From: Panacibacter ginsenosidivorans | Lineage (GTDB): Bacteria > Bacteroidota > Bacteroidia > Chitinophagales > Chitinophagaceae | Assembly (NCBI RefSeq): GCF_007971225.1 | Contig: NZ_CP042435.1 | Coordinates: forward strand, 5,149,501-5,213,500 | Length of the DNA: 64,000 nt | Reading direction: 5' to 3' | In this document: positions 4,109 through 62,958 of the stretch, piece by piece | Numbering within the stretch: the first letter of the stretch is position 1 | Layout: each line of letters begins with the position of its first letter | Position numbers and translations under genes: made by a program | Notes under the pieces: generated by a model | Databases searched by the model: none | The model's input: the letters and a program-made list of their open reading frames with translations, nothing else | What the model was told of the DNA's origin: nothing

Positions 4109-4293
4109 TTATGTAACCAGCTGCAGTAAAATTATGATGCTACTGTTGCGTCGCACTCTTGTACAGGTGAATAATAAGTGGTCAATGGTGAAGGACTTAT
4201 TAACCATTCACAATTGACCATTCACGATCAGAACGTACAAGTGAGTGACACAACTGGGTTGCTAGAAGTACAACAGCTTGCAACCAAAAATAA
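4109..4293. repeat. Dispersed repeat, full palindrome (left A + right B)
   Basis: The left core is GTTGCGTCGCACTCTTGTAC at 4145-4164. The right core is GTACAAGTGAGTGACACAAC at 4235-4254, with a subtype-B-like tip. The loop contains a second, nested inverted repeat, TGGTCAATGGTGAA against TTCACAATTGACCA (one mismatch). Confidence 0.85.
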
Positions 4294-7828: not shown

Positions 7829-10354
7829 TTAATTTTCAAGTTGCTGTTGCATTCTTCTTATGCGATCTTCCAGTCTTTCAGATGAAAGATTATACCTGCT
7901 TAATCCATCAACGATAATAGGAAAAGACAACGGTGTAAACTGCTGTGGAAACATAATCACGATGCGACTATTTTGTATACGCTGCAATGCATTGCGCAAA
8001 CGCACTTCTTCCATCTGCTGATCAAACACTTCCTGGTATGCCTGCCGCAATAAAATATTATGGGGGTCATATTCGCTAAACACCTTGAAAAGCAGTCCGG
8101 CAGAGGATTGCAGGTGTCTTGCCTTTTTTTGCTCACCAGGAAAACCCTGGAAGATCAATCCGCCAATCACAGCAATATCACGGAATTTACGTGTTGCCAT
8201 TTCAACAGAGTTTACACTCTTTTGAATGTCTGTAATAAGATTTTCAGTTGTAAATAATTCATGCACGTTGGTGTCATCCACAGGAATGGGGCGATCACTC
8301 AATAATTCAAAACCGTAATCATTCATAGCGATAGAAAAAGTAATGGCTGTTGCTTTGCTGATGCGGTATGCCATCAATGAACTCATGGCTTCATGCACCT
8401 GCCTGCCTTCAAACGGATACACCATTAAATGATAACCATCTTTATCTTCGATATGTTCTATCAGCAATTCATCTGATTGTGGAATATGTGATAATTCCTT
8501 TTGCAATTCAAACAATGGCTGCAAACTTTTTAATTCAATTTCATCAAGATCATTGGCTGCGATCTTATTAAATGTGTTACGCAGCACATGACCCAGATTT
8601 GCAGTAAGACTCATTCTTCCACCCATCCAGCTTGGCACCAATGCTTTCTTCGATTTTGATTTACGTGTAAGCACTGTCATATCTTTTATAGCAACCATTT
8701 CAAGATTATAACCACCAAACACAAACACGTCACCAGGCTCCAAACGACTAATGAACCATTCTTCAATCACACCAATATAGCCACCACTCATGAATTTTAC
8801 TTTCATCATCGCATCACTAACAATAGTGCCAATATGCATTCGATGCCGCATGGCAATGCGCCTGTTGCGTATGCGGTATAAGCCATCAATAACTTCTACT
8901 TTTTTATATTCATCATAATGTTCCAGCGCTTTACCGCCACTGGTGATATGATATATTACTTCATGCCACTCACTTTCTTTTATATCAGCAAAACAATAAG
9001 TTGATCTTACTTCTTCGAAAATTTCCTCTGGCCTGAAACCCTCGCCAATAGCTAATGTGCAGAGATATTGTATCAATACATCAAAGCAAAGCAACATTGG
9101 TTCACGACTTTCTATTACTTTGTCCTTGATGGCTTCTTTTAATGCTGCAGCTTCTACCAATTCCAATGAATGTGTTGGTAAAAAATAAATCTTACTTACA
9201 TCACCGGGCCTGTGCCCACTGCGGCCTGCACGTTGTAAAAACCTTGATACACCTTTAGGAGAACCAACCTGTATTACAGTATCAACGGGCCTAAAATCAA
9301 CACCAAGATCAAGACTTGCAGTACACACCACTGCTTTCAATTTTTGTGTATGCAATGCTTCTTCAACCCACCAACGCAGCTCTTGTTCAATACTGCCATG
9401 GTGCAATGCAATGGCGCCGGCAAGCTGTGGCGCAATATCAAGAATGGTTTGATACCATCTTTCACTCATGCCTCTTGTATTAATAAAAATGAGCGTGGTA
9501 TTGCTTGCTTCAATGATGGGAATAATTTGTGCAGCCAGCTTAATACCAAGATGGCCCGCCCATGGGTATTTTTCTATCTCGTCTGGTATAATGGAATAAA
9601 CTTCTGTACGCTTATGCAGGTTTGCTTTTACAATTACACTTTCTTCAAAATTTACAGGCGCAAGCAACACTTCTCTTGCTTCTTCCAGATTTCCAATTGT
9701 TGCGCTAATACCCCAAACAGAAATTTGTTTTTTTTGACTTTTAACTTTTGACTTTTCACCTTCTCTGTTGTCTATTGCCAATTGCCCATTGACGACATTT
9801 ACAATCCTGCTCACCGCCAATTCCACTTGTACACCACGTTTACTGCCAAGCAATTCATGCCATTCATCAACAGCAATAATGCGCAGGTCTTTAAAAGTTT
9901 CAGGATAGCCTTTTTGCGCCAATAATAAATGTAAACTCTCCGGAGTTATCAGCAACACCTCGGGTATATTACGTTTTTGTTTTTGCCGCTCACTGGTGTC
10001 TGTATCACCATTACGAATGCCAACTTTCCATTGCATGCCTAATTCTGCAATTACTTCTTCCATGGCACGTGCAATATCTTTTGCCAATGCACGCAGTGGT
10101 GTTACCCACAATAATTGTAAACCGTTTTTTGATTTCGTTTTGTAGTTGTCCGGATGTTCGTTAATGAATTGTATTACACTGCCAATAAAAACGGAGAATG
10201 TTTTTCCGCAGCCTGTAGGGGCATTTACCAAACCGCTTTTGCCATCAAGAATATGCTGCCACGTTTCCTGCTGAAAGCTAAATGGGGCAAAGCTTTTGGC
10301 AGTAAACCAATCTTTTATAATTTGAAAGCCTTTTGTTCTATTTAATGATGCCAT
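7829..10354 (-). CDS. Ligase-associated DEXH-box helicase, bacterial Lhr type
   Basis: An 841-residue superfamily 2 helicase of the short bacterial Lhr group, whose members unwind DNA-DNA or RNA-DNA duplexes in a proposed DNA-repair pathway. Motifs seen: Walker A NAPTGCGKTFS (about residue 40), the DExH box as VDEWHELLG, motif III as GISATIGN, motif VI as QRAGRSGHRPGD, and then the Lhr-specific C-terminal half. Family members usually sit beside an exonuclease, an ATP-dependent DNA ligase and a phosphoesterase; none is next to it here. Between AVSRIV and QISVWG the protein carries about 21-24 extra, polar residues (NGQLAIDNREGEKS and on). They are encoded by a low-complexity sequence that otherwise occurs between genes in this window. 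Confidence 0.93.
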   Translation of the reverse strand: MASLNRTKGFQIIKDWFTAKSFAPFSFQQETWQHILDGKSGLVNAPTGCGKTFSVFIGSVIQFINEHPDNYKTKSKNGLQLLWVTPLRALAKDIARAMEEVIAELGMQWKVGIRNGDTDTSERQKQKRNIPEVLLITPESLHLLLAQKGYPETFKDLRIIAVDEWHELLGSKRGVQVELAVSRIVNVVNGQLAIDNREGEKSKVKSQKKQISVWGISATIGNLEEAREVLLAPVNFEESVIVKANLHKRTEVYSIIPDEIEKYPWAGHLGIKLAAQIIPIIEASNTTLIFINTRGMSERWYQTILDIAPQLAGAIALHHGSIEQELRWWVEEALHTQKLKAVVCTASLDLGVDFRPVDTVIQVGSPKGVSRFLQRAGRSGHRPGDVSKIYFLPTHSLELVEAAALKEAIKDKVIESREPMLLCFDVLIQYLCTLAIGEGFRPEEIFEEVRSTYCFADIKESEWHEVIYHITSGGKALEHYDEYKKVEVIDGLYRIRNRRIAMRHRMHIGTIVSDAMMKVKFMSGGYIGVIEEWFISRLEPGDVFVFGGYNLEMVAIKDMTVLTRKSKSKKALVPSWMGGRMSLTANLGHVLRNTFNKIAANDLDEIELKSLQPLFELQKELSHIPQSDELLIEHIEDKDGYHLMVYPFEGRQVHEAMSSLMAYRISKATAITFSIAMNDYGFELLSDRPIPVDDTNVHELFTTENLITDIQKSVNSVEMATRKFRDIAVIGGLIFQGFPGEQKKARHLQSSAGLLFKVFSEYDPHNILLRQAYQEVFDQQMEEVRLRNALQRIQNSRIVIMFPQQFTPLSFPIIVDGLSRYNLSSERLEDRIRRMQQQLEN
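9728..9798. repeat. Low-complexity intergenic-type repeat inserted in frame in the Lhr gene
   Basis: On the plus strand it is made of repeated words TTTGACTTTTAACTTTTGAC and then GTCTATTGCCAATTGCCC. The same words (GTCAATTG, AGTCAAAA, GTGAAAAG) occur in repeat loops at 4180-4226 and 57622-57669 and in the gap at 19247-19275. The insertion keeps the helicase frame. Confidence 0.65.
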
Positions 10355-10392: not shown

Positions 10393-10532
10393 ATTATAAA
10401 CCCAACTGTATTCCTGCTATTAAGCATTGTTGCGTCGCACTCTTGTACGCTTTGCTCAGTATTGAACTTAATGCAGAAGAGTGCGACGCAACGAAAGTCT
10501 AATACTTATTCTGCAGATGGGAGCAAAAAAAT
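10393..10532. repeat. Dispersed repeat, full palindrome
   Basis: Left core GTTGCGTCGCACTCTTGTAC at 10429-10448, right core GAAGAGTGCGACGCAAC at 10476-10492, loop of about 27 bases. The inner bases GCTTTGCTCAGTATTGAAC are typical of the family. Tips read TATTATAAACCCAACTG and CAGATGGGAGCAAAAAA. The 10355-10680 gap otherwise holds only the next inverted repeat. Confidence 0.88.
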
Positions 10533-14493: not shown

Positions 14494-14725
14494 TTTTTAT
14501 GTACCCGGCCGCAGTGTTTGTAGCATCGCCTGTTGCGTCGCACACTTGTACGTTCAGAACAATGATAAAAAGTTCAAACGTTTACATGTTCAACAATTCA
14601 CGCGTTTACAGGTGCAAGCAACCCGTAAACATTTAAACTCGTGAACTGTTGAAACTCTTGAAGGAGCAAAAGTGTGCGACGCAACAGAAGTTTAATATTT
14701 GTACTACAGCCAGGCCAATAAAAAT
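14494..14725. repeat. Dispersed repeat, full palindrome with long loop
   Basis: Left core GTTGCGTCGCACACTTGTAC at 14532-14551, right core AAGTGTGCGACGCAAC at 14670-14685. The 118-base loop contains a nested imperfect inverted repeat (GTTCAACAATTCACG against CGTGAACTGTTGAA) and repeated GTTTACA words. The right tip GGCCAATAAAAA abuts the permease 3' end. Confidence 0.88.
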
Positions 14726-19242: not shown

Positions 19243-19286
19243 ACTGTGAAAGGTGAAAAGTAAGATGTGAAATTTCTTCCCGGTTG

Positions 19287-33961: not shown

Positions 33962-34090
33962 GATTTTGTACAAGGCTCCATTACTACTATGCGACACCTG
34001 TTGCGTCGCACACTTCATCGTTCAGTTCAGTAATGAGCAAGGCGTACAAGTGAGCGACACAACAAGAAATATGTCGCGGTTTTTTTGAGG
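33962..34090. repeat. Dispersed repeat, full palindrome (mixed subtype)
   Basis: Left core GTTGCGTCGCACACTT at 34000-34015, right core GTACAAGTGAGCGACACAAC at 34044-34063, short loop with AGTAATGAGC. The right tip is diverged. The gap 33947-34328 holds this element, a small hairpin (34154) and one more arm (34212). Confidence 0.8.
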
Positions 34091-54899: not shown

Positions 54900-55124
54900 G
54901 TTTTTTTGAGCCAGGCAATTGAATAACAATTGGGCTGTTGTTGCGTCGCACACTTGTACGCAGGAAAATATTTCAGCAATAATAAGTTTACATGTTTCCA
55001 CTATTTGTATTTGAATTACTCGTAAACTTGTTATGCAATGTATTTGCCGAACAACGCTATAGTGTACAAGTGTGCGACGCAACAAAAGTCTGGTAGTTGC
55101 TGTAAAGTTGGGGTCATAAATATT
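54900..55124. repeat. Dispersed repeat, full palindrome with long loop
   Basis: Left tip TTTTTTTTGAGCCAGGC, left core GTTGCGTCGCACACTTGTAC at 54940-54959, right core GTACAAGTGTGCGACGCAAC at 55064-55083, right tip GTTGGGGTCATAAATATT. The 104-base loop contains a nested pair AAGTTTAC / GTAAACTT. Confidence 0.88.
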
Positions 55125-57539: not shown

Positions 57540-57738
57540 TTTATTTGACGGGCTGAAGAGCTGCAATGTTGCTTCTGTTGTGTCACTCACTTGTACGTTC
57601 AATTCATTATTGAACAAAGTAAAAAGTCAAAATTCAAAAGCACGAAGACTTTTTTGAATTTTGACTTTTGAATTATTTTGCAGTACAAGTGTGCGACGCA
57701 ACAGATGATGCTATGAAAAACTTTTGCTGGTAAACAAA
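57540..57738. repeat. Dispersed repeat, full palindrome (left B + right A) with perfect nested hairpin
   Basis: Left core GTTGTGTCACTCACTTGTAC at 57577-57596 with B-type tip TTTTATTTGACGGGC; right core GTACAAGTGTGCGACGCAAC at 57683-57702. The loop holds a perfect 18-bp inverted repeat, AAAAGTCAAAATTCAAAA (57622-57639) with TTTTGAATTTTGACTTTT (57652-57669). Confidence 0.88.
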
Positions 57739-62761: not shown

Positions 62762-62958
62762 ATACTTATGATACCGGCTGCAGTATTTCATAGGAGCTTT
62801 TCTTGCGTCGCACTCTTGTGCAATTTGGATGTGAAGCGGCAATCGATAAGTTACCAATTTTATTTTATTGTATTAAACGTTTAATACCCTTCAAAACGCA
62901 CAAGTGAGTGACACAACAATCGATGCCATAAAATGCCGCAGCTAGTGACAAAAAAATA
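62762..62958. repeat. Dispersed repeat, full palindrome (left A + right B)
   Basis: Left tip CTTATGATACCGGCTGCAG, left core CTTGCGTCGCACTCTTGTGC at 62802-62821. Right core ACGCACAAGTGAGTGACACA at 62895-62914, right tip GCTAGTGACAAAAAAATAA (subtype B). The loop includes a perfect 16-bp palindrome TATTAAACGTTTAATA (62871-62886). Confidence 0.85.

Follow-up and report, generated by a model that had tools for sequence, protein, structure and literature searches.

The window, that is, the whole stretch of 64,000 nucleotides of the Panacibacter ginsenosidivorans genome that was analysed, carries a gene for an Lhr-type helicase (Table 1). Its 841-residue product scored 1076 bits against NCBIfam TIGR04121, above the curated cut-off of 850, and is thus a member of the ligase-associated Lhr-type family. 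The Pfam domains DEAD, Helicase_C, WH_Lhr and DEAD_assoc were all found in this open reading frame.

A preliminary description of this DNA had placed in the gene an in-frame insert of about 21–24 residues. The insert is real. It encodes VVNGQLAIDNREGEKSKVKSQKKQ, flanked by SRIVN and ISVWGISATIGN, and its DNA is a 62-nt array of degenerate heptamers (about 21 codons) located between the motifs DEWH and SATIGN. On the coding strand the units read GTCAATG, GGCAATT, GGCAATA, GACAACA, GAGAAG, GTGAAAA, GTCAAAA, GTTAAAA and GTCAAAA. The P value obtained for period 7 against codon shuffles (0.0005) is the floor allowed by 2000 shuffles, and the array consists, like heptameric SSRs, of 7-nt tandem units at the DNA level. 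The DEWH-to-SATIGN span amounts to 61 residues in the window helicase compared with 43 in the sister genome (G001) and 40–41 in the shortest Lhr homologues. The sister Lhr, about 87–88% identical to the window helicase, lacks the insert.

Table 1. Positions of the features discussed in the text, in window coordinates.
Feature	Position	Strand	Basis or remark
Gene for an 841-aa DEXH helicase of the Lhr type; family TIGR04121 (ligase-associated DNA damage response)	7829..10354	-	ORF and profile matches
Degenerate heptamer array, in frame, 62 nt	9732..9793	-	TRF period 7 over 9732-9756; codon-shuffle P 0.0005
Array block 1 (GTCAATG GGCAATT GGCAATA GACAACA), encodes VNGQLAIDN	9766..9793	-	similar block in L176/L177
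Array block 2 (four GTNAAAA units), encodes ..EKSKVKSQK	9732..9759	-	similar block in L176/L177
Second Lhr loop, about aa 598-606, before DEIELK; array-bearing in relatives, no array here	approx. 8537..8563	-	residue-derived
Inverted-repeat element, GTTG(T/C)GTC.CAC-type ends, heptamer arms AAAGTCAAAATTCAAAA / TTTTGAATTTTGACTTTT, words shared with the array	57577..57702	.	intergenic
Inverted-repeat element, ends of the same type as 57577..57702, arms GGTCAAT / ATTCACA-ATTGACC	4145..4254	.	intergenic

The array site lies in the first RecA domain, in the loop that joins the post-DEWH helix to the pre-SATIGN strand. In the structural model, residues 196–208, between a helix (172–197) and a strand (212–217), form the longest of six segments with a pLDDT below 50, and confidence is low for the loop's second half. 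The best solved structures, 5v9x and 7lhl, align to residue 187 and resume at residue 275, and are therefore uninformative on the insert.

Two relatives (loci L176 and L177) possess the same two-block array, with order and frame matching those of the window gene. Their identity to this gene at fourfold sites is 0.41 and 0.43, for saturation expectations of 0.27 and 0.28. As the array is shared despite this low identity, it looks inherited within the clade: it probably came from the common ancestor of the clade and was then lost or shortened in the sister species.

The insert had also been said to be made of words belonging to the noncoding repeats of the window. Several of them do recur between genes, less strongly than claimed: TTTTGACTTTT is found again at 57622 and 57659, both within a single hairpin, and ACTTTTCACCTT and CAATTGCCCATT at 19250 and 62469, respectively, which are intergenic according to the ORF mask. 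A search of the 5.53-Mb genome revealed related arrays in other genes (see below), and the 20-mer TTTGACTTTTAACTTTTGAC proved to be single-copy, its sole site being the helicase gene.

Heptamer arrays in the Lhr loops of relatives

From 110 Lhr loci we obtained 103 distinct loops, after removal of L027, L030 and L174, in which the loop pattern was absent, and of four duplicates. When each loop was compared with its own codon shuffles, period 7 was significant (P≤0.01) in 32 of the 103, and the control periods 5, 8, 10 and 11 in 1, 2, 0 and 0, respectively. In the 40 loops of at least 60 nt, the lag-7 identity was 0.463 versus 0.264 in the codon shuffles (z 28.6). Lags 14 and 21 gave z values of 24.2 and 18.0, and the remaining lags from 2 to 24 ranged from −5.4 to 2.9. 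For the 63 shorter loops, z was 5.2 at lag 7 and 3.7 at lag 4. A 7-nt unit does not amount to a whole number of codons, and the repetition therefore belongs to the DNA and not to the protein.

The words of the arrays vary among species and the period is common to them; arrays of different species have neither a consensus nor an encoded peptide in common. A purine-then-pyrimidine polarity was seen in 21 of 25 Lhr arrays compared with 6 of 13 long non-array loops. As a mark of arrays in TilS this polarity was uninformative, the same gradient being present in 14 of 15 non-array TilS loops.

According to the preliminary description, the insert was a noncoding repeat turned into a protein loop, and similar insertions of unrelated sequence in homologues were to count against this. 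The alignment of the relatives' Lhr proteins cuts both ways: the heptamer arrays recur, as described above, and the same loop also receives unrelated inserts, with long non-heptamer ones in L022, L196, L200 and L244. These inserts, together with 13 loops of at least 60 nt devoid of an array (P>0.05), indicate that the Lhr loop is generally permissive.

Arrays in other loops, other enzymes and other bacteria

We scanned 250 kb of Lhr coding DNA outside loop 1. Eleven further array places were detected, in 7 species, and none at the four control periods. All begin 1144–1301 nt beyond the SAT motif and thus correspond to one second loop, at the place of which the model shows a coil (residues 600–605). 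This loop was located in 95 of the 103 sequences and tested in 92, with noisy rows (L014, L193, L198) where the pattern ran into conserved sequence. Period 7 was significant (P≤0.01) in 12 of the 92, compared with 0, 1, 0 and 1 for the control periods. Species with an array in loop 1 account for 9 of the 12 rows with a second-loop array versus 18 of the 80 others. The two loops share on average 10.0 8-mers within a species versus 2.9 between species, and none in 4 of 9 species.

Thirty TilS loci were fetched and 10 without a pattern match were left out; period-7 arrays were found in 5 of the 20 remaining loops (controls 0, 1, 0 and 0). The TilS loop of P. ginsenosidivorans has 45 residues and an inverted pair, and that of the sister 32 residues and no such pair. 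In-frame arrays are also present in HldD, PurH, PaaE, RsmF-like, GlcD/GlpC-like and debranching enzymes of the same genome and, in relatives, in ValRS, DprA, a TrmN-like enzyme and HldD. Pooled HldD loops (22 of 26 loci) gave a lag-7 z of 3.1; pooled PurH loops (27 of 30 loci) gave no lag-7 excess (z 1.1; lag 5, z 4.2), and PurH is length-neutral with respect to the sister. The debranching enzyme has no counterpart in the sister, and its loop pattern found no gene other than that of P. ginsenosidivorans.

At the scale of the genome, a GKYAAWD-type pattern of three units gave 26 matches, versus 10 for the reversed control. By reading, these represent 20 sites, of which 7 are in genes, 9 are intergenic or upstream and 4 were set aside by eye as chance. 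Two more array places were found, one being TilS. Related arrays are thus present elsewhere in the genome, as in heptameric SSR systems, and the 7 genic versus 9 non-genic sites are to be compared with about 90% intergenic in Xanthomonas. In tool-chosen samples, 7 of 30, 8 of 12, 6 of 12 and 3 of 8 loci were coding, overlapping loci of one place being counted repeatedly (for example L078/L100, L256/L260, L257/L261, L266/L275 and L278/L280). Of 98 family genomes, 22 contain the exact four-unit GKYAAWD pattern (reversed control, 14 of 98); the genome studied and its sister do not.

Two measurements call for caution. Three-unit period-7 arrays at 85% identity, counted over a 464-kb sample, numbered 4 in coding and 4 in noncoding DNA versus 3 in one shuffle; at a level so near that of the shuffle, a short array in one gene can be a chance product. 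In a sample of the same size, the density of the window loop's own 10-mers in noncoding DNA was 2.2 times that in coding DNA, and the loop ranked 4th of 103 by noncoding 10-mer density. As non-array loops took ranks 1 and 5, this test is weak alone.

Comparable repeats are known elsewhere, and the comparisons that follow refer to parts of the reports cited. Xanthomonas (GGGAATC) and Nostoc (GGGGA(C/T)T) have degenerate 7-nt tandem units scattered genome-wide, often as two close arrays in convergent orientation (70 and 75 cases in two Xanthomonas genomes), with an intragenic share of 11% and 7% in Xanthomonas and higher in Nostoc (PMC4692102). The likeness lies in the scattered degenerate units, some of them intragenic; as to convergent pairs, inverted pairs are significant here in 9 of 27 array loops, the window's own not being among them. 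Those SSRs, however, are G-rich and were studied as quadruplex or regulatory candidates, whereas here species-varying words recur in frame in the same enzyme loops, of which the part of the report concerned gives no instance. TAACTGA direct repeats occur in Beggiatoaceae, Cyanobacteria and, beside other heptamers, some Bacteroidetes (MacGregor 2015, PMC4679880). Forward copies have stops in all frames, so that copies in ORFs are reversed or at ORF ends. Unlike the Lhr array, this system has a single fixed word, which in the main genome studied mostly stands immediately before start codons, and its genic copies are found chiefly at the ends of proteins or in hypothetical ones; neither TAACTGA nor TCAGTTA in tandem is found among the units of the window array. 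The archaeal Borg repeats resemble ours in being fast-evolving, both intergenic and in ORFs, and in yielding disordered protein segments, but all their ORF units are divisible by three, whereas the Lhr unit measures 7 nt and only the net length preserves the frame (PMC9879509). A survey of prokaryote satellites derives some of the most abundant bacterial families from heptamer and hexamer repeats and, in the part concerned, deals with satellites only, without in-frame heptamer loops (PMC6749651). No report of in-frame heptamers in Chitinophagaceae was found among the open-licence literature matches listed. Heptamer repeats and in-frame repeats are thus each already known; what seems new is the repeated colonisation of the same enzyme loops.

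Origin of the insert

We consider it likely that the insert is a coding copy of a class of degenerate tandem heptamers, rewritten at the DNA level and kept in permissive loops. The period, the frame, the loop, the recurrence across species and genes and, in some genomes, the match of words are direct observations; the source would be copying between loci plus slippage, and the added peptide would be neutral. Chitinophagaceae possess such heptamers, sometimes as inverted pairs, both between and inside genes. Arrays would arise or land through a frame-blind process acting on DNA, and would then grow, shrink and change their wording by 7-nt units. Survival in a gene would need a permissive loop, a net length that keeps the frame and stop-free words. 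As 7 and 3 share no factor, three or more units in a row pass through all three frames, so that the stop-free GTCAAAA is tolerated in any phase and its reverse complement TTTTGAC, which contains TGA, is not. In all 7 genes of the genome with the GTCAAAA/GTCAATG pattern, the stop-free strand is the one read. The earlier idea of a noncoding repeat turned into a protein loop stands in that the loop DNA is of the same class as the noncoding heptamer arrays of the genome and of the family; for a transfer from intergenic DNA, no donor copy was identified.

Heptamer repeats have long been noted in bacterial genomes. An orthologous loop that is recolonised offers a dated, alignable record, in which the divergence of the core gives time and the loop gives birth, word change and loss. 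A noncoding-type repeat keeps reshaping a conserved enzyme, since about a third of the Lhr genes examined bear an array in the loop. It also represents a route by which frame-blind, non-triplet repeats extend TilS and ValRS, which are essential, by tens of residues. Conversely, such segments in alignments or structure models can be DNA-repeat noise and not functional insertions.

Possibly, the arrays are instead born in place by local slippage with a preferred 7-nt step, and words never move between loci. Heptamers are reported to be over-represented in many bacteria, and slippage linked to the polymerase footprint has been proposed by others as the cause, as given in the part of the report concerned (PMC4692102); one period with differing words between species is in keeping with this. 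The behaviour of individual words bears directly on the question. Among 12 genomes, the three with GGGAGTC in their Lhr gave 30, 13 and 7 hits for this word in double, one other gave 6 and the remaining 8 gave none. Overlapping windows and the Lhr loops are part of these counts, and a single 252-nt stretch that fits the Lhr loop supplies 6 of the 30. AAGCTGC, the Lhr word of genome G008, is there nearly private to Lhr (2 of 3 exact double hits), as expected from slippage, and has 25 exact double hits in G128, whose Lhr has a different word; a loop word is therefore not always common in its own genome. GTSAATC is common to several genomes whose Lhr is without it. The rule that a loop uses its genome's own word is thus supported by GGGAGTC, contradicted by AAGCTGC and left mixed by GTSAATC. 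Against slippage alone, the same words occupy many places (30 hits in G123 and 49 in G121, counts that again take in overlapping windows and Lhr) as well as both intergenic and coding sites of the P. ginsenosidivorans genome, and simple slippage would not be expected to yield one word as an inverted pair.

A broader and rather unlikely conjecture is that a dedicated activity common to Bacteroidota, Xanthomonas and Cyanobacteria might write inverted, lineage-specific heptamer arrays into chromosomes, for example as templated filler at repaired breaks, the enzyme loops being their in-frame fossils. If so, the history and the sequence code of this activity could be read from protein alignments of the Lhr, TilS and ValRS loops.

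It is unlikely that a mobile palindrome, akin to Rickettsia palindromic elements or of the MITE/REPIN kind, entered the gene whole. In-frame inverted pairs do exist, in the L221 array (fold z −11) and in the TilS loop mentioned above, other palindromes occupy the Lhr loop of L231 (CCGATAGCTATCGG), L195 (CCCGATAGCGATCGGG) and L223 (CATCCTGAGCTTGTCGAAGGA), and the genome is rich in hairpins with 20-bp ends (45 pairs in 464 kb, 7 of them with heptamers in a strict test). In the window insert, however, inverted arms are not significant (P 0.70), and no GTTGCGTCGCAC-type 20-bp inverted ends were found around 9728–9798 or among the paired elements found. We thus rejected the insert as a GTTGCGTCGCAC-ended hairpin; the local intergenic hairpins with these ends are a distinct element. 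Nor is a hairpin a universal trait of arrays: with arrays under 66 nt left out, 9 of 27 had inverted pairs at P≤0.05, the other 18, including that of the window, having none significant. A fold z below −2 was obtained for 6 of 32 array loops versus 0 of 45 others, with an array median of only −0.38. Y1 (RAYT-type) transposases (PF01797) numbered 0 in the genome, 5 of 14 control genomes being positive, and REPIN/RAYT membership was rejected on this basis. Rickettsia palindromic elements likewise place repeated DNA in frame within unrelated genes; according to the part of the review concerned, they differ in measuring about 150 bp and in forming ten families, each with a conserved peptide (PMC10969869), whereas the window loop is non-palindromic and words and peptides vary by species.

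Selection on the peptide, a positively charged, flexible KSKVKSQ loop that would aid the helicase and leave the DNA repetition as a by-product, is very improbable. EKSKVKSQ or a near-match is present in L002, L176 and L177 despite wide silent-site divergence. Yet the close sister does without the block, other species have unrelated loops, and the loop's second half is modelled with low confidence. Moreover, lags 7 and 14, which are not multiples of 3, match the strength of lag 21, and protein selection cannot yield this.

Finally, an ordinary A+T-rich low-complexity loop falling into a heptamer register by chance is hardly credible: the near-shuffle level of three-unit arrays and the noncoding 10-mers of A+T-rich non-array loops would fit it, but the P value of the window array, the 32 significant loops and the pooled lag-7 z speak against it, the G+C-rich GGGAGTC arrays (L221, L236 and L214) are significant as well, and at the family level codon shuffles and the four control periods rule chance out.

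A heptamer array in an Lhr-type helicase and its counterparts

The helicase gene encodes a protein of 841 aa that passes the NCBIfam cut-off for ligase-associated DEXH helicases (TIGR04121; 1076 bits against 850) and has Pfam matches to WH_Lhr and DEAD_assoc. On the coding strand, between DEWHELLGSKRG and WGISATIGN, it carries nine consecutive units; all measure 7 nt except one of 6 nt. The in-frame repeat noted in the preliminary description was borne out, and is much wider than claimed, with arrays in many species and genes. In the predicted structure, built from 37 sequences only, the first part of the insert extends helix 172-197, and residues 196-208, ahead of strand 212-217, have a pLDDT below 50. 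Since five further segments are also below 50 and the mean pLDDT is 79.5, the model supports a flexible loop and carries no finer detail.

Positions of the arrays and hairpin elements
Feature	Position	Strand	Sequence or remark
Lhr-type helicase gene	window 7829-10354	-	
Lhr array	window 9793 down to 9732	coding (-)	GTCAATG GGCAATT GGCAATA GACAACA GAGAAG GTGAAAA GTCAAAA GTTAAAA GTCAAAA
TilS of the window's genome (L285)	C1:1537307-1538686		GTCAATC GTGAATC GTCAATC GTGAATA ... ACTCAC GATTCAC GATTCAC
TilS match in G022	G022:C1:2653721-2655022		one TAA within
Further inverted pair, window's genome	G000:C1:3244221-3244271		arrays of GTCAATCGTGAATC
Hairpin element	window 4145-4254		abundant inverted repeats, 20-bp ends GTTGCGTCGCAC(A/T)CTTGTAC / GTACAAGTGAGTGACACAAC (all seven)
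Hairpin element	window 10429-10492		
Hairpin element	window 14532-14685		
Hairpin element	window 34000-34063		
Hairpin element	window 54940-55083		
Hairpin element	window 57577-57702		
Hairpin element	window 62802-62917		

A protein search matched Lhr in 52 of 59 relatives, from which 30 loci were taken; the best 80 further loci found by scanning the named genome collection were added, their titles giving Chitinophagaceae genera, Chitinophagales, Sphingobacteriales, Bacteroidetes and one plain bacterium. From these loci, 107 loops were recovered with a motif pattern, and 103 were distinct. In those of at least 60 nt (n=40), identity at lag 7 was 0.463, and codon shuffling lowered it to 0.264 (z 28.6), with z of 24.2 at lag 14, 18.0 at lag 21 and −5.4 to 2.9 at the remaining lags; for the shorter loops (n=63) the z values at lags 7 and 4 were 5.2 and 3.7. 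Tested singly, 32 of the 103 were significant at period 7 (P≤0.01), compared with 1, 2, 0 and 0 at control periods 5, 8, 10 and 11. Because the shuffles preserve both the amino acids and the codons used, and a 7-nt step does not fit whole codons, the repetition is a property of the DNA. Long inserts without heptamers occur in the same loop (L022, L196, L200, L244), so that permissiveness belongs to the loop and the heptamer character to the DNA filling it. The rest of Lhr held 11 period-7 places in 7 species, all 1144-1301 nt past the SAT motif and all in one second loop, before DEIELK, which was significant in 12 of 92 cases (controls 0, 1, 0, 1). Altogether, these data show a frame-blind 7-nt repetition of DNA, confined within Lhr to two permissive loops, recurrent over species and variable in its words.

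Other palindromic repeats also lie in frame in the first loop (CCCTCTCC..GGAGAGGGG, CATCCTGAGCTTGTCGAAGGA, CCGATAGCTATCGG and CCCGATAGCGATCGGG; loci L226, L207, L223, L231 and L195), and the second loop of L226 is a mosaic of several. Period-8 arrays, rarer relatives of the heptamers, were read by eye in the Lhr loop of L173 (GGCAACGG GGCAACAA GGCAAGGA ...) and found significant at period 8 in the TilS loop of L289 (GGGAAGTC GGGAAGTC CGGAAGTC-like).

Arrays in other genes and in the window's genome

TilS carries in-frame arrays in one loop across several genera, some as inverted pairs (L285, L288, L289, L291, L301 and L274). Of 20 recovered loops, 5 had arrays (controls 0, 1, 0, 0), L274 being displayed but left out of this test. 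In the window's genome the segment measures 45 aa and holds an in-frame inverted pair; that of the sister species has 32 aa. The ValRS of G014 (L266), 940 residues of which cover 840 positions in the valine--tRNA ligase profile, has a repeat-like in-frame segment of about 90 aa (VKRETGNGNG... SIHDSRLSVDDSPF...), whose DNA includes GTGAAAC/GGGAAAC units and a GATTCAC/GATTGAC arm. Two species, the window's and that of L257, have arrays in HldD, each in a different loop; at the former loop the sister segment is unrelated and longer (52 against 38 aa). GGTCAAT-type heptamers were seen in this same HldD loop in both genera, in the window species' L108 and in L133 of G013, where a palindrome, TCCCGATAGCTATCGGGA, interrupts them. 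Arrays were also present in a relative's DprA and in a relative's TrmN-like enzyme, which scores below the curated cut-off. Names given to other matches by eye, such as ArgRS, UvrA, NadR, RsmE, Fmt, allantoinase and urocanase, were not counted as evidence.

Three GKYAAWD units, with at most one mismatch, gave 26 matches in the window's genome against 10 for the reversed pattern; generic three-unit period-7 arrays stayed near shuffle level (8 against 3). Among the 20 sites counted, 4 were chance-like, 9 lay between genes or upstream of one, and 7 were genic and in frame, the last all in recognisable genes with the stop-free strand in sense. PMC4679880 reports heptamers (TAACTGA) in Bacteroidetes, and their stop-free orientation within ORFs. 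One genic site, in PurH, is length-neutral relative to the sister, and PurH loops as a set showed no lag-7 excess. Hairpin elements with GTTGCGTCGCAC-type ends enclose 7 of the 9 intergenic or upstream sites. With up to 3 mismatches allowed in the ends, a 464-kb sample held 45 paired elements and 116 unpaired ends; 7 of the pairs had heptamer arms by the strict test. Heptamer arrays are thus a separate layer in permissive places, hairpin interiors included. No Y1/RAYT transposase was found in this genome.

History and origin of the arrays

Array presence was mapped on a FastTree phylogeny of Lhr with the loop left out of the alignment. At least 19 changes were needed, of which starred branches force 11, against a mean of 27.5 with shuffled labels (0 of 500 shuffles as few as 19); the trait is therefore partly inherited and has also undergone many changes. 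Of the 10 rows in the window's own clade, 8 had arrays at P≤0.01. Two of the relatives' loci, L176 and L177, share the window's block order and frame (CAAT units, a GAAG-rich joint, GTCAAAA-type units), although their fourfold-site identities to the window gene are only 0.41 and 0.43, where saturation predicts 0.27 and 0.28. The three like arrays could have arisen independently; the simplest reading of these sequences is that the window array would be ancestral, heptameric to date, and lost or shrunk in the sister. The window copy was probably inherited within the clade. L005 is 91% identical to L176 when the loop is excluded, and has a different loop word, AAGCTGC.

The exact long word is unique to the window's Lhr gene. 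The exact four-unit pattern occurred in 22 of 98 family genomes (reversed control, 14 of 98) and in neither the window's genome nor its sister; some control matches may be other heptamers, as tandem TAACTGA fits the reversed pattern. GGGAGTC clearly fits its own genomes: it gave 30, 13 and 7 matches in the three genomes whose Lhr carries it, 6 in G028 and none in the remaining 8 of the 12 genomes, counts that include overlapping windows and the Lhr loops themselves. The match was mixed for GTSAATC (49 in its source genome G121, 56 in G014, 23 in G017) and contrary for AAGCTGC (3, 2 of them in Lhr, against 25 in another genome), so that copying within a genome is likely for some arrays and no more than possible for others. 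Arrays would originate through slippage together with the copying of words already present; selection would do no more than purge copies that bring in stops, shift the frame or damage the structure. The idea of a noncoding repeat turned protein loop keeps its core; the noncoding-to-coding direction would be one presumed step. For the 7-nt unit, PMC4692102 relays others' hypothesis of polymerase-footprint slippage. Some arrays are inverted pairs, 9 of 27 long ones at P≤0.05; the Xanthomonas heptamers described in that paper include convergent pairs too (70 and 75 cases). Of 32 arrays, 6 folded with z below −2, the Lhr loop of L221 reaching −11; none of 45 non-arrays did so.
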